A stretch of DNA of 64,000 nucleotides. Source: Methanolobus sediminis. GTDB taxonomy: Archaea > Halobacteriota > Methanosarcinia > Methanosarcinales > Methanosarcinaceae. The notes below the pieces were generated by a model. That model did no database searches, was not told the DNA's origin, and was given only the letters and a program-made list of their open reading frames with translations. The stretch covers positions 1 to 64,000 of the forward strand of contig NZ_CP133592.1 in NCBI RefSeq assembly GCF_031312595.1, given 5' to 3'. Both the position numbers and the translations under genes were made by a program. Below, piece by piece: positions 24,069-30,277 of the stretch. Positions within the stretch are counted from its first letter, which is position 1. Each line of letters starts with the position of its first letter.

Positions 24069-25829
24069 TTACTTTTCCTTATGGATAATTATTGAACCGC
24101 CACCAATTGCAGCTGTCGCATCTGCATTATCAGAGTCACCGTTCTGATTGTCATAGATGATTTCATCGGTAGCTTCATTCCATATTTTCATCCTGAATTT
24201 GTCACCGTCGTCGTCAATGGCACTTAGCATGAAGGTATACTCGCCTTCTCCATTGATGGTTCCAGTACCCTTATACATAGCCTTAGAACCTGCAATAACA
24301 AGCCATTCATAGCTTGTTGACTTGAAGGTAAGATCTGCAACCTGGAACTGGAATTCCGTATTACCTGTTGGTACAGTTGCTCCATTTTTATATTTAGACA
24401 CAAAACCAAATGTTGCTTTGCCAGTAAGAGTTGGATCTGTTATATACGCATCCAATGGTGAGTAAATCCAGCCACCACCTGTTACAAATCCTGCATTAGT
24501 GTCATAGATTACAACATATTGTTCAGATGTCATTGTAGCAGAATCACCGTCATCATCTGTTACTGTTAAGGTTATTTTGTATACTCCAGCATCTGTATAC
24601 GAGTGAGATGTCTGATCAGCACTTATAGATAAAACACTACTAAGTTCTCTGGTATCAACGGAATTATCACCCCAATCTATAGTTATATAATGCGTATCTA
24701 AAGTTCCCACATCAGTAAAGTCTGAACTTATTGCCACAGGTTCATTTACTGCAATGGGGTCAACTGGAGAAGATAAGGATACTATTTCAGGTTCTACATT
24801 TTTCACCGTTACTACGGAAGAAGCAGTGCCAACACCTCCATCATCGTCAAAGACTGTCACAACAACGGTATAGTCATCAAATGATGTGCCACTTGGATCA
24901 TCATCTAAGTATTGGTGAGATTTGCTGAATTCAGTTGTTCCAGCCGGATAGCTGACTGTTTCACTGATGTCATCTCCCCAAATGAATGTAAGTTCAAAGG
25001 AATCGTTTATTCCAGAATCAGTAATTGCTCCATTTATTGTTGCGTTTTCATTTTCATTAATTTCGTCGTCTGATATTGTCACAGTTGGTGCAACGTTGTT
25101 GACTGTTACCTCTAGAATATCAGTTCCAACTCTTCCGTCACCATCAGTTATTGTCAGAGTAACAGTATAATAACCATTATCAGCATATGTATGGGTTGAT
25201 TCAAGGGTTCCTGATTCAGTTGCCCCGTCTCCAAAATCCCATTCTATGGTGTGGGTATCTTCACTTCCTGCAGCGGTGTAAGTACCTGAAAACGAAACAG
25301 TGTCACCTTCATTGACAATTTGATCAGCACCTGAATCGACAACAGGATCTATATTGCCAGGAGTAACAAACATATCGAAGGACTCTGCAGCCACAATTCC
25401 TAAAGGAAACAAATCATTTTCGAGACCAATCATGACACGATAGACAGTGTTGGTTGATGCACTTTCTTTGGCATGAATAGTTATGCTGTTTACATCTGTA
25501 TAAGGATCAGATGTGGGGATTAGACTAACAGGAGTTGTAACTATAATATCACTTGGATCACCATCACCAGATCTTATTTGAACATTGTAGAAGTATTTAT
25601 ATTCCGTACCCATCAAATTGTAAGAAGGATCCTGCTGTATATCATATAGTAATACTGTAATTGGTTCTTCATTACCTTGTTGCAAATAAATTGGAGTCTG
25701 CCAGTTCAGCCTAATGTCATCTTCGTTGAAAAGTATCATCATTTCTGCCGAAGCTGGCCCTACAGTAACAAGCAACATAATCATTATAGCCAATGTGCAG
25801 ATTGAAATTATGTTTGTTTTCTTTTTCAT
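24069..25829 (-). CDS. Secreted PKD-domain surface protein 3
   Basis: 586 residues, paralogue of the protein at 16965 (near-identical signal peptide region, middle PKD units and C-module). Signal ends VGPASA. PKD units include IEWDFGDGATESG, FIWGDDISET and TIDWGDNS. C-terminal module runs from GFVTGGGWIYSPLDAY to GGGSIIIHKEK. It lacks the ~120-residue N-terminal portion and one PKD unit of protein 1. No anchor. The 5' regions of genes 1 and 3 also match (ACTGAAGTGATA just before the start). Confidence 0.85.
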   Translation of the reverse strand: MKKKTNIISICTLAIMIMLLVTVGPASAEMMILFNEDDIRLNWQTPIYLQQGNEEPITVLLYDIQQDPSYNLMGTEYKYFYNVQIRSGDGDPSDIIVTTPVSLIPTSDPYTDVNSITIHAKESASTNTVYRVMIGLENDLFPLGIVAAESFDMFVTPGNIDPVVDSGADQIVNEGDTVSFSGTYTAAGSEDTHTIEWDFGDGATESGTLESTHTYADNGYYTVTLTITDGDGRVGTDILEVTVNNVAPTVTISDDEINENENATINGAITDSGINDSFELTFIWGDDISETVSYPAGTTEFSKSHQYLDDDPSGTSFDDYTVVVTVFDDDGGVGTASSVVTVKNVEPEIVSLSSPVDPIAVNEPVAISSDFTDVGTLDTHYITIDWGDNSVDTRELSSVLSISADQTSHSYTDAGVYKITLTVTDDDGDSATMTSEQYVVIYDTNAGFVTGGGWIYSPLDAYITDPTLTGKATFGFVSKYKNGATVPTGNTEFQFQVADLTFKSTSYEWLVIAGSKAMYKGTGTINGEGEYTFMLSAIDDDGDKFRMKIWNEATDEIIYDNQNGDSDNADATAAIGGGSIIIHKEK

Positions 25830-27102: not shown

Positions 27103-27210
27103 ATGAAAATTGCAGAAAATACCTTAACACCACATGAATTAAGAATTAGTCTTAAATTGCAAGATAGTTACTGTGGGCTAAAACAGGAGGATTCTTTATG
27201 TTACAAATGA
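27103..27210 (+). CDS. Possible upstream ORF overlapping winged-helix gene 2
   Basis: 35 codons with GGAG 8 nt before the ATG; it overlaps the start of the regulator by 13 nt in another frame. A shorter ATG ORF (27075-27137) precedes it. No known family. It may be a leader affecting translation of the regulator, or chance. Confidence 0.3.
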   Translation: MKIAENTLTPHELRISLKLQDSYCGLKQEDSLCYK

Positions 27211-27527
27211 TGGAAGCGGTCAAAATGCCAGGACAAATTCAGGGTGCTATGTCTGATGAAGAAGTGATTGCATGGGTACTCGGTGTTGACAGACGCCTTG
27301 TTGTCCTCGGGTCCATGAAAAGTCATCCAATCCTTAAAGCATCAGATATTGCCCAGGAAACGAACAGGTCTACACAGAACATAAGCCGTGCTCTTAAAGA
27401 GTTCAATGAAAAAGGATTCATAATGTGTCTTAATCCTGAAAAAACAACCTGGAAAAGATATACTATTACAAATTCCGGAAGAGAGTTACTGGAAAAACTC
27501 GAAGATATCTATTTCGATCCTAATTAA
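27198..27527 (+). CDS. Small winged-helix transcriptional regulator (paralogue 2)
   Basis: 109 residues. WVLGVDRRLVVLGSM, KASDIAQETNRSTQNISRAL and PEKTTWKRYTITNSGRELLE mark the same single-domain family as 16120 and 46931. AGGAGG lies about 7 nt before the ATG. A long leader (from about 27045) carries a hairpin and short ORFs. Because its promoter shares an inverted repeat with vhtG, both may answer to one regulator, perhaps this protein itself (inference). Confidence 0.87.
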   Translation: MLQMMEAVKMPGQIQGAMSDEEVIAWVLGVDRRLVVLGSMKSHPILKASDIAQETNRSTQNISRALKEFNEKGFIMCLNPEKTTWKRYTITNSGRELLEKLEDIYFDPN

Positions 27528-27630: not shown

Positions 27631-29355
27631 TTAAGACTTATCTGTAACCTGCTTAATATACGGGCCAAGAATCATGTCCTTGTAAGCACCACCTGCAGGA
27701 ACCTTTGGATACAGAACTTCTTCCCTGTCTGTGCAAACTTCAAGGAAACATGGTCCTTCTGAATTCAGGAAAGCCTCCATTCCATCTTTAAGCTCTTTCC
27801 TGTCTGTTATCCTTTCAGCAAAAGCAAATCCGAAAGACTCTGCGATTTCAGCAAAATGAACATCCTTTGGCCTCTGTGTTCCAGTCCTTTTTCCTTCATA
27901 AGCTGCATCCTGCAGGTTCTGGACCATTCCGTCACTCCTGTTATTAAGCATGAGTATCTTGATCGGCAGGTTCAGTGAAGCGATCGTATGTAGTTCCCCA
28001 AGGTTCATTCGCAGACTTCCATCACCATCGATTGCTATGACCCTTGCTTCAGGGTTTGCAAAATGGACACCAATTGATGTTGGCATGGAAAAGCCCATTG
28101 TTCCGAAAGAACCGGATGTCATGAAAGACTTTGCTTTCTGCATGGGAAGATACTGTGCTGCAAGCATTTGCTGATTGCCGACACCTGTTGTAATCATGGT
28201 GTTACCATCGATATAATTGGATAGCAGTGACATGACCTCAGCAGACTGGATAAATTCTGATTCACGGTTGTAATCCAGCGGCCATGACCTTTTCAGGAAT
28301 CTGGCACGTTCCTGCCACTCGTAGATGTTCAATGTGATGTTGTTCTTTTTAGCATAATTGAGCAGATCCATTATAGCCGTGGTAGCATCCCCGATGAATG
28401 TGAATTTCGGTCCTCTTTCTATCTTTATCTGGTGCATTTTCTCGGGATTGATATCGATGTAGGCGATGTCCGTGCCAATCGCAAACCCGACTTTTTCAGC
28501 AACCCTGTCATCCCAGCGAACACCGATTGCGAAGAAGAAGTCGTTCTCCTGGATGAGCATGTTGGCGTATGGTGTGCCAAACATTCCCAGCATTCCGAGA
28601 TTGAGTTCCTCACGGCCATCAAGGACTCCTTTTGCCATGAGAGTGTTTACCGAAGGTATCATGAAGTAATCATTAAACTCCCTGATTGCATGGCTTCCGG
28701 CTTCAGAGTTGAGACCTCCTCCCAGATAGAGTAGCGGTCTTTTTGAGTTAAGGAATAAACGGAAGAATTCCTCGCATTGTTCATCGCAGAGATGTCTGTC
28801 ATCATGGTAGCTTTCCTCGAACCTCATGATGTTCATGTCCTGGTACTCATGCATCTTCTGCTGTTTGTCCAGAGGGACATCTATGACAACTGGCCCGGGT
28901 TTTCCGGATTTTGCAAAGTAGTAGGCATCCTTGATAATAGCCTCAAGATCATCACCATCAGAAACCAGCATGACCTTCTTGGCAGCTTCCCCGAAGATAC
29001 CCTCAACATTGATATGCTGGAACGAGTCGGTGCCTATCTTATGCGCAGGGACCTGCCCCGCGATGACAAGAAGCGGGATGCTGTCACCATAGGCATCTGC
29101 AACGCTTGTGAGCGTATTGGTGATCGCAGGTCCGGATGTGACTATTGCAACACCGACATCGCCTGATGACCTGGAATATCCGGCTGCACTGAAGGCTGCT
29201 GACTGTTCGTTTGAGTTGATGACTATCTCGATGTCACTCTTCTCAAGTGCATGGAATACCGGAAGTATTGCCGCTCCGGTATAACCGAATATTTGTTTGA
29301 CCCCGAGGTCCTCCAGACTTTTAACTAATATTTCTGCTCCATTCATTTCTTCCAT
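27631..29355 (-). CDS. ilvB: Acetolactate synthase large-subunit-like ThDP enzyme
   Basis: 574 residues. GYTGAAILPVFHAL and NSNEQSAAFSAAGY hold the catalytic glutamate that activates thiamine diphosphate; IDGDGSLRMNLGEL with NNRSDGMVQ is the ThDP-Mg motif. Three-domain PYR-central-PP layout. The family condenses pyruvate in valine/leucine/isoleucine synthesis. GYTGAA instead of the usual GYPGGA and the lack of an ilvN subunit gene nearby leave the exact substrate open. Start ATG 29355 has GGAG at 7 nt; the longer 29397 start is rejected. Its leader (29411-29530) looks like a Val/Leu attenuator, which favours a biosynthetic role. Confidence 0.87.
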   Translation of the reverse strand: MEEMNGAEILVKSLEDLGVKQIFGYTGAAILPVFHALEKSDIEIVINSNEQSAAFSAAGYSRSSGDVGVAIVTSGPAITNTLTSVADAYGDSIPLLVIAGQVPAHKIGTDSFQHINVEGIFGEAAKKVMLVSDGDDLEAIIKDAYYFAKSGKPGPVVIDVPLDKQQKMHEYQDMNIMRFEESYHDDRHLCDEQCEEFFRLFLNSKRPLLYLGGGLNSEAGSHAIREFNDYFMIPSVNTLMAKGVLDGREELNLGMLGMFGTPYANMLIQENDFFFAIGVRWDDRVAEKVGFAIGTDIAYIDINPEKMHQIKIERGPKFTFIGDATTAIMDLLNYAKKNNITLNIYEWQERARFLKRSWPLDYNRESEFIQSAEVMSLLSNYIDGNTMITTGVGNQQMLAAQYLPMQKAKSFMTSGSFGTMGFSMPTSIGVHFANPEARVIAIDGDGSLRMNLGELHTIASLNLPIKILMLNNRSDGMVQNLQDAAYEGKRTGTQRPKDVHFAEIAESFGFAFAERITDRKELKDGMEAFLNSEGPCFLEVCTDREEVLYPKVPAGGAYKDMILGPYIKQVTDKS

Positions 29356-29410
29356 TATAATTCTCCATGAAAGAAACAATCCCGGCACAGGATACACTAA
29401 TCAGTAATTA

Positions 29411-29462
29411 AACAAAAACAGCGCACTTGAGCCAGAAAAGTTTCGATTATCGTGCTCAAGCG
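29411..29462 (-). terminator. Attenuator-like terminator before ilvB
   Basis: On the minus strand CGCTTGAGC pairs with GCTCAAGTG (9 pairs, one G-U) across a 21-nt loop, followed within 4 nt by TGTTTTTGTT. The stop codon of the leader ORF (29456-29458) is inside the first arm. Confidence 0.7.
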
Positions 29463-29530
29463 TTTAACACTACCACTACTAAGGACACAGGCACTAAAGT
29501 CACAGTGTGAGTTGTGGTAGGGTTTGACAT
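29456..29530 (-). CDS. Val/Leu-rich leader peptide upstream of ilvB
   Basis: 24 codons, ATG at 29528-29530, stop TGA at 29456-29458. After MSNPTTTH it reads TVTLVPVSLVVVVLNA: seven Val and three Leu in 13 residues. This is like the ilvB leader of enteric bacteria. The start lies about 27 nt from the centre of a TATA box and no Shine-Dalgarno is seen, so the leader may be translated from a leaderless end. CTACCAC (29514-29520 on the minus strand) can pair with GTGGTAG over the Val codons (29470-29476), giving an alternative hairpin. Confidence 0.65.
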   Translation of the reverse strand: MSNPTTTHTVTLVPVSLVVVVLNA

Positions 29531-29551
29531 TAGGTAAGGATTGTGGGAGGT

Positions 29552-29562
29552 GGTATTTAAGG
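29552..29562 (-). promoter_or_regulatory. TATA box of the ilvB leader transcript
   Basis: Minus strand CCTTAAATACC. Its centre is about 27 nt from the leader ATG. Confidence 0.5.
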
Positions 29563-29782
29563 ATGTTGGGTATTGATACTTAAGAAGTTGTTGTAATTTC
29601 CATTGTTAAGCAATTAAATTTCATGATTTTTTTGCTTTACTTAATAGATATTTAACATCAAATTGTTGGACCAAGTATGGTAAAATTTAGCAAGTAATTT
29701 ATATGGACAAACGCATTTACCCCACTAAACAAATAGTTAAGGATAGAGAAATAAAAAATAAATAATTTGATGGTGATTGGTC

Positions 29783-30277
29783 ATGACCTTTAAGATATTT
29801 GTTAGTTACTGTACAAAAGATATAGAAGAGATTAAGCCTATTTTAAATCAAATACAAACCATAAAAGATACTGAATTTTTCTTCGCTGACCAAACATTGA
29901 ATCCAGGGGATCATATAAGCCAAAGAATTATCAACTACATAAGTAATTGTGATGTTTTCATTTTATTTTACAGCAAATCTGCCTACGCTTCAACTTATGT
30001 TCAACATGAAATCGGTGTTGCTAAAGCTAACGATAAACTAATTATACCAATTTTGCTTGATGATACAAAGCCTGATGGAATGTTACAAGGCATAAATTAT
30101 CTGAATTTCTATAACCAAAATAAAAAGCAGCAGGAATTTGAAAGGTTATATAATTATATTAATCAAAATGTTAAACGAAAAAATCAAAATTCTGCGCTTT
30201 CTCTGGTAGCATTGTTGGGACTTGGATATCTTTTGCTAAAATCAGATGAAGGAGAAAGCGAGGAAGAGTTTTTCTGA
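29783..30277 (+). CDS. TIR-domain protein with C-terminal hydrophobic segment
   Basis: 164 residues. FKIFVSYCTKDIEEIKPI, FFADQTLNPGDHI, CDVFILFYSKSAYAS, VQHEIGVAKANDK and IIPILLDD make a full TIR fold; the glutamate of QHEIG is at the position of the catalytic acid of NAD-cleaving TIRs. After a Lys/Asn linker a hydrophobic stretch (LSLVALLGLGYLLL) and acidic tail (DEGESEEEFF) may anchor it. TIR proteins act in antiviral NAD depletion or signalling. No recognised sensor gene is adjacent. ATG 29783 has GGTGAT just before; the TTG at 29777 is rejected. Confidence 0.85.
   Translation: MTFKIFVSYCTKDIEEIKPILNQIQTIKDTEFFFADQTLNPGDHISQRIINYISNCDVFILFYSKSAYASTYVQHEIGVAKANDKLIIPILLDDTKPDGMLQGINYLNFYNQNKKQQEFERLYNYINQNVKRKNQNSALSLVALLGLGYLLLKSDEGESEEEFF

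Follow-up and report, generated by a model that had tools for sequence, protein, structure and literature searches.

Leader-peptide attenuation requires tight coupling between transcription and translation, together with a terminator that a ribosome can block. The enteric leaders of ilvB (ivbL) and ilvGMEDA carry a short ORF rich in Val and Leu codons and a terminator hairpin with its T-run, upstream of a gene of the same pathway. In enteric trp and ilv leaders, the antiterminator is formed when the 5′ arm of the terminator pairs with an upstream segment (2:3). In erm and cat attenuators, a ribosome stalled on the leader ORF masks the first hairpin arm, and an alternative pairing frees the Shine-Dalgarno sequence (SD). 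Archaea also couple transcription and translation, but their polymerase is eukaryote-like and terminates at U-runs.

Leaders of acetohydroxyacid synthase genes outside the enteric bacteria offer further points of comparison. The leader start codon of Corynebacterium glutamicum ilvBNC lies about 1 nt from the transcript start, and the leader folds into competing hairpins (PMC11857589). In several Actinobacteria, ilvB leader ORFs with Ile, Val and Leu codons overlap a candidate terminator hairpin; in one look-alike, the ilvB leader of Streptomyces coelicolor, codon swaps were without effect (PMC1262725). This is a caution for an attenuator reading of the locus described here. In the open-access literature, no archaeal leader-peptide attenuator was found among the matches listed, judged by title and start of abstract, and the main text of the Methanosarcina mazei Ribo-seq paper makes no mention of acetolactate, attenuation, valine or ilvB.

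The locus described here lies in a window of 64,000 nt, the whole stretch of Methanolobus sediminis DNA that was analysed. It is composed of the following features, all on the minus strand:

29554..29560, minus strand: TATA-like box TTAAATA, first base 30 nt 5′ of the leader ATG, read from the sequence
29456..29530, minus strand: leader ORF of 24 codons plus stop, predicted leaderless; ATG at 29530, stop TGA at 29458-29456
29514..29520, minus strand: segment A, CTACCAC, complementary to Val codons (A:B helix), from RNAalifold
29470..29476, minus strand: segment B, GTGGTAG, within the Val codons, from RNAalifold
29465..29479, minus strand: Val-Val-Val-Val-Leu block, codons 18-22, conserved; predicted sensing codons
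29454..29462, minus strand: segment C, 5′ arm of the terminator-like hairpin C:D (9 bp), which holds the leader stop TGA
29431..29444, minus strand: 5′ strand of helix D:E (GAAAC 29444-29440, CTGGC 29435-29431), in the C:D loop and the D arm
29424..29432, minus strand: segment D, 3′ arm of hairpin C:D, also used by helix D:E
29414..29418, minus strand: T-run TTTTT 3′ of hairpin C:D, candidate termination site
29373..29395, minus strand: segment E, 3′ strand of helix D:E (GCCGG 29386-29382, GTTTC 29377-29373)
29363..29366, minus strand: Shine-Dalgarno GGAG of the acetolactate synthase (ALS)-like gene, read from the sequence
27631..29355, minus strand: ALS-like gene, ATG at 29355, 574 aa, thiamine-pyrophosphate enzyme (Pfam TPP_enzyme N/M/C), stand-alone ilvB paralogue

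The TATA box, the ATG, the 24-codon Val/Leu ORF, the stop codon within an arm of the 9-bp hairpin and the T tract are thus all located where the original prediction had placed them. The ORF product, MSNPTTTHTVTLVPVSLVVVVLNA, has 7 Val and 3 Leu among its last 15 codons. The window contains 489 ORFs of 15-40 codons that start with ATG; no other among them reaches 10 Val plus Leu in its last 15 codons, and at least 7 Val are found in two. We propose that this leader is probably a ribosome-mediated attenuator, raising expression of the ALS-like gene when charged Val-tRNA, and perhaps Leu-tRNA too, is scarce; this reading is built on sequence comparison.

Divergent from the leader, a TIR-domain protein is encoded at 29777-30277 on the plus strand (TIR_2 67 bits, ThsB_TIR 35.8 bits), possibly a defence gene. 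A small winged-helix regulator-like protein (27198-27527, plus strand), for which all Pfam matches are below cut-off, is convergent with the ALS-like gene, and a PKD-domain protein is encoded further on (24069-25829, minus strand).

The original prediction had called the downstream gene acetolactate-synthase-like and its transcript ilvB. The gene is a stand-alone ALS paralogue and not the canonical ilvB; its product is 37% identical to that of the canonical ilvB of its own genome and scores 504.8 bits with TIGR00118, below the cut-off of 538.35. Though outside this cut-off, the protein may work as a biosynthetic acetolactate synthase. An NEQ motif at the expected active-site Glu is present in all 33 full orthologues. 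Plant acetolactate synthases are the nearest relatives of known structure; at a site that is presumably position 574, the third best chain, 6u9h, carries Trp and the two ranked above it carry Leu. Leu occupies this site in the window protein and in 32 of the 33 full orthologues (in the remaining one the pattern matched elsewhere), and the canonical ilvB of the same genome has Trp there. The Trp of plant ALS favours 2-ketobutyrate, the substrate of the Ile branch. With Leu in its place, the paralogue may make acetolactate, for Val and Leu, and not the Ile precursor, which agrees with the many Val and few Ile codons of the leader.

Of 871 database matches the best 120 were considered; in these, relatives at 69-75% come from contigs labelled Woesearchaeota or Nanoarchaeota, and named ones at 62-66% from Omnitrophota, Planctomycetota and other bacteria; outside the family, a sample of 392 genomes of the phylum held no relative nearer than 39%. 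Within the family, the gene is patchy (44 of 111 genomes, some of them incomplete). This patchiness, and a clade common to Methanosarcinaceae, DPANN-labelled contigs, Omnitrophota and Planctomycetota, make horizontal transfer of the ALS-like gene likely.

At a threshold of E <= 1e-150, an orthologue was found in 44 of the 237 genomes of the class, all inside the family of the window (111 genomes). The assignment to Methanosarcinaceae rests on named records, among them Methanolobus profundi, M. bombayensis, M. vulcani, M. psychrotolerans and M. halotolerans, Methanococcoides alaskense, Methanohalophilus profundi, Methanohalophilus euhalobius and a Methanosarcina sp. Leaders were read individually, and all 44 family genomes with an orthologue have one. 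The leader set comprises these 44 loci and one MAG contig binned as Woesearchaeota (L051), 45 in all; some counts cover 44 of the 45, as given with each figure. Among 371 genomes of the phylum of L051, the ALS-like gene is present only in its source genome, suggesting mis-binning or a single transfer, and L051 is not counted as independent support.

Sufficient upstream DNA was available for 30 leaders. Compared with the window, their leaders have a median identity of 0.83 (lowest 0.53), whereas the region from -150 to -45 has a median of 0.355 (highest 0.50). The leader is thus conserved and the DNA 5′ of the promoter is not, so that promoter and leader move with the ALS-like gene while the neighbourhood changes. 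This conservation, far above chance, is the decisive evidence. ORF, Val/Leu block, hairpin and T-run are all conserved in the alignment across the family, and the non-conservation named as refuting in the original prediction was not seen. The hairpin itself was rejected as main evidence, since its pattern alone is common: although C:D adjoins the ALS-like gene in 44 of 44 orthologue genomes, a loose version matches 32 times in the own genome (18 in the reversed control) and, among the matches listed, in at least 114 of the 237 class genomes, at least 70 of which are without the orthologue. Fold energy was rejected as well, single-sequence folding giving unremarkable z values of -2.1 and -1.7.

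Two loci show the leader apart from an intact gene. In one Methanolobus genome, a second, decayed leader copy that has lost its ATG and kept its hairpin (L110, G061:C1, motif 3141556-3141589, minus strand) precedes another gene, about 4.4 kb upstream of the intact unit of leader and gene, as a remnant of duplication or rearrangement. In L055 (G030:C88:12636-14341), from a MAG labelled Methanohalobium, the ALS-like gene is broken, with five stops in one stretch, and leader ORF and hairpins are intact despite this.

How translation of the leader would begin is suggested by its promoter. All 44 leaders examined have a TATA motif whose first base is 29-33 nt upstream of the leader ATG. Only one leader of 45 has an SD-like 4-mer ahead of this ATG, whereas the ALS start is preceded by one in 44 of 45, L055 being the exception in both cases. 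Leaderless transcripts account for 15.6-16% of those in Methanolobus psychrophilus, where about 19-22 nt separate promoter and start site (PMC5378194); this spacing fits a transcript start at or just before the leader ATG. We infer that transcription of the leader begins at the ATG or no more than a few nt from it and that the leader is translated without SD, in line with the leaderless initiation previously proposed for this locus. In three leaders (L005, L010 and L023) an extra in-frame ATG lies upstream of the TATA box, and the inner ATG was used.

The leader ORF has 22-30 codons, 5-9 of them Val, in 45 of 45 leaders, and the distance from the ATG to the Val motif varies in whole codons only (44 of 44). 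The +1 frame contains a stop in all 44 leaders; the +2 frame is stopped in 19 and open in 25. In all leaders read, 92-131 nt separate the leader stop from the gene start, with no frame constraint (17, 15 and 12 leaders for the three remainders modulo 3). Val makes up 29% of leader residues and its codons (n = 318) are GTA (0.64) and GTG (0.31), compared with 0.28 and 0.21 for the window as a whole, taken from 30 ORFs, unverified as genes, that encode 250 aa or more. The last Val codon (alignment codon 27) is GTG in 25 leaders, GTA in 18 and replaced by Ala in 2; it sits 4 codons before the stop in 40 of 44 and is followed by Leu in 42 of 45, via four different codons. The Val codons nearest segment C are the most conserved.

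Over the whole ORF, codon variants fall at the three positions 24, 20 and 23 times (21 synonymous, 46 not), so that a codon-position coding test of the complete leader ORF detects no third-position excess. Moreover, the N-terminal half of the peptide drifts freely. Together, these two observations imply that the peptide sequence as such is under no strong constraint. A functional small protein with the hairpin as its ordinary terminator would account for a conserved peptide of 22-30 residues with a hydrophobic tail and for the T-run 3′ of the hairpin. It is at odds with the N-terminal drift and with a stop always 92-131 nt before the same gene and overlapped by a hairpin arm, and it leaves helix D:E unexplained; we hold it to be very improbable.

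The lack of third-position bias, like the +2 frame open in 25 of 44 leaders, is also what might be expected of a structured leader read by a protein, a metabolite or an RNA and not by translation, the ORF being then a by-product of RNA pairing. Indeed, the two most conserved Val codons are also constrained by the A:B pairing. On the other hand, a by-product of pairing would hardly keep length changes to whole codons (44 of 44) and a fixed spacing between promoter and ATG, and Val and Leu are retained through synonymous change outside the paired bases; Rfam, too, gave 0 matches at gathering score within the 64-kb window. This explanation therefore appears improbable to us.

The potential of the leader to fold was deduced from the alignment. 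RNAalifold pairs columns 11-17 with 76-82, that is CUACCAC near the ORF start with GUGGUAG (A:B); this helix is nearly invariant and its covariation thus says little. The original prediction had called for compensatory changes in the hairpin. C:D itself shows little of this: 95.9% of its cells are paired, five of its nine pairs never vary, a single pair displays a double change, and its covariation is near that of shuffles (29-179 of 500 reach the observed values). Compensatory changes are found in a newly spotted helix, D:E, which RNAalifold proposed without prompting. Of its 18 pairs, 8 are changed on both sides, with 90.1% of cells paired; double-change cells number 24 against 4.8 in shuffles, none of 500 shuffles reaching 24. 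Slid versions of the helix are 40-60% paired with 1-3 double-changed pairs; those slid by -1 and -2 still display 18 and 14 double-change cells, concentrated at 3 and 2 pairs (versus 8) with about 40% paired. In 8 representatives of less than 80% identity, 126 of 141 cells are paired and 6 of the 18 pairs carry double changes. Segment E ends 17-19 nt upstream of the gene start in 41 of 45 leaders.

Since arm D is common to both, C:D and D:E are mutually exclusive, and such exclusive helices are present as sequence potential. What distinguishes them is the T-run. In all leaders but one (44 of 45, the exception being L012), the 20 nt beyond D contain a run of at least 4 T, compared with 5 of 45 for the 20 nt after these; the run is short, and begins 5 nt past the base of C:D in 39 of 45. 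For D:E, a run of this length comes next in only 1 of 45. C:D is thus terminator-like and D:E is not. The enteric layout put forward in the original prediction does not hold on this point: RNAalifold on 44 leaders recovers A:B and D:E and no B:C helix, the enteric-style antiterminator, so that no competitor forms on the 5′ side of the terminator arm; D:E, the helix that does compete with C:D, is located downstream.

The effect of a ribosome on C:D was modelled with a front edge 12 or 15 nt downstream of where the A-site codon begins. When the RNA is cut at the T-run and carries no ribosome, C:D forms with a mean probability of 1.00, above 0.8 in 45 of 45 leaders. With the A site at least 5 codons before the stop, it remains at about 1.0 for the 12-nt edge (0.57 at -5 for 15 nt). 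It drops to 0.58 (12 nt) or 0.03 (15 nt) at 4 codons before the stop, and to 0.03 (12 nt) or 0.00 (15 nt) at 3 codons, where the codon is Leu. A ribosome at the stop codon blocks C:D wholly (0.00). The idea that a ribosome stalled on the Val/Leu codons covers the first arm is therefore retained, in this model, for the last Val codon (or last two) and the following Leu, and abandoned for most Val codons.

Since C:D is undisturbed by a ribosome on an early Val codon and blocked by one that has reached the stop, the sign of the response would depend on timing and on quick release. One might then turn the wiring around, with C:D as the ON and D:E as the OFF structure: stalling at most Val codons would leave C free and block D:E, consistent with C:D forming at about 1.0 (12-nt edge) with the A site at least 5 codons before the stop and at 0.00 at the stop. 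Textbook trp attenuation is of this kind, segment 2 being masked by a ribosome that sits on the stop codon. However, a run of at least 4 T comes after C:D in 44 of 45 leaders and after D:E in 1, and D:E leaves the SD open, unlike an OFF structure. Moreover, the most conserved Val codons are those nearest C, which such wiring would not favour, although A:B also constrains two of them. We see little chance for this inverted scheme. Under the preferred attenuator, with C:D as OFF, the modelling calls for a ribosome that is released fast at the stop yet moves slowly over the last of the Val codons, and this is its weak point.

Once the polymerase is past the T-run, the SD of the ALS-like gene would come into play. 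In 43 sequences folded from C onward only (L055 is without SD), the SD is unpaired at 0.24 with C:D forced and at 0.86 with C blocked, a difference above 0.3 in 41 of the 43; with E shuffled, the values are 0.20 and 0.19. As D:E can form only after passage of the T-run, its conservation implies a role in the full-length RNA. These observations, like the span of -6.2 to +5.4 kcal/mol by which the C:D and D:E states differ over 44 leaders, can be accommodated by an erm-type translational attenuator, in which the T-run would be non-terminating and a stalled ribosome would shift C:D (SD covered) to D:E (SD open). Yet C:D covers the SD no better than it does when E is shuffled (0.24 versus 0.20), and the exposure is lost once the 5′ leader may pair: when the whole leader is folded with its 5′ part free, the SD of the stalled state is unpaired at just 0.26-0.31. 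A shuffled 5′ part gives a similar value (0.28 real, 0.31 shuffled), and this re-pairing thus appears non-specific, yet it weakens the SD argument. Purely translational control would also leave the T-run after C:D in 44 of 45 leaders unexplained. We judge it unlikely, without being negligible.

Returning to attenuation at the C:D terminator, D:E is treated in our model as the ON fold, and OFF would be achieved by termination, by SD cover or by both. With Val plentiful, the ribosome would finish the leader and leave early, C:D would fold as D emerges and the T-run would halt the polymerase. Under Val shortage, the ribosome would be slow on the last Val/Leu codons, its front edge covering C so that C:D could not fold. 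The polymerase would then pass the T-run, and D would pair with E, locking C:D out and leaving the SD open. A second OFF route, in which the SD is blocked in read-through RNA that keeps C:D, is possible.

Similar leaders were sought before other amino acid biosynthesis genes of 15 Methanolobus genomes. No recurrent residue-rich leader ORF was detected before 29 leuA, 15 trpE or 14 ilvD loci (two G047 fragments left out of the last). A recurrent aromatic/Leu-rich ORF before ilvD was rejected, as it was read as spanning the TATA box and would precede the transcript start. The lack of a comparable leader before these three genes counts against the attenuator reading. The canonical ilvB of the own genome (L002) has no such leader in the 330 nt upstream.

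We lean slightly towards regarding this leader as the first amino-acid-sensing ribosome-mediated attenuator of Archaea. It would combine a leaderless Val/Leu peptide, archaeal U-run termination and a new order of parts, in which the terminator C:D is followed by a downstream lock helix, D:E, formed on its 3′ arm and opening the SD, so that one stalled ribosome would set both read-through and translation. If true, attenuation logic works with the archaeal machinery, and the locus would provide a ready-made reporter for transcription-translation coupling. The presence of carriers among named Methanolobus, Methanococcoides, Methanohalophilus and Methanosarcina strains makes direct testing feasible.

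With the enteric ilvB and ilvGMEDA leaders, the archaeal leader shares a short Val/Leu-rich ORF, a terminator-like hairpin with its T-run and a gene of the same pathway. It differs from them in having no 2:3 antiterminator 5′ of the terminator, an ORF without SD and a stop inside the hairpin arm. The erm and cat attenuators resemble it by the leader ORF, by a first arm that, in our modelling, could be masked by a stalled ribosome and by an alternative pairing that would free the SD. Here, unlike in erm and cat, the signal would be an amino acid and not an antibiotic, a T-run follows the first hairpin, and SD occlusion in the OFF state is not above that of shuffled controls. By analogy of layout, the leaderless corynebacterial ilvB leader appears closer to the archaeal one than the enteric leaders are. 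A leaderless leader peptide, at first thought a new twist, is already known from C. glutamicum ilvBNC, and the two leaders have in common branched-chain control codons, a hairpin that spans the beginning of the leader ORF, and competing hairpins before an acetohydroxyacid synthase gene (PMC11857589). The C. glutamicum antiterminator lies upstream and uses the 5′ side of the terminator, whereas the competing D:E lies downstream and uses the 3′ arm. The ALS-like gene, whose next downstream neighbour is convergent, forms no operon, unlike ilvBNC, and its promoter and polymerase are archaeal; the likeness is one of layout, and homology is not claimed. The order of parts in this leader is thus unlike that of the known leaders compared here.
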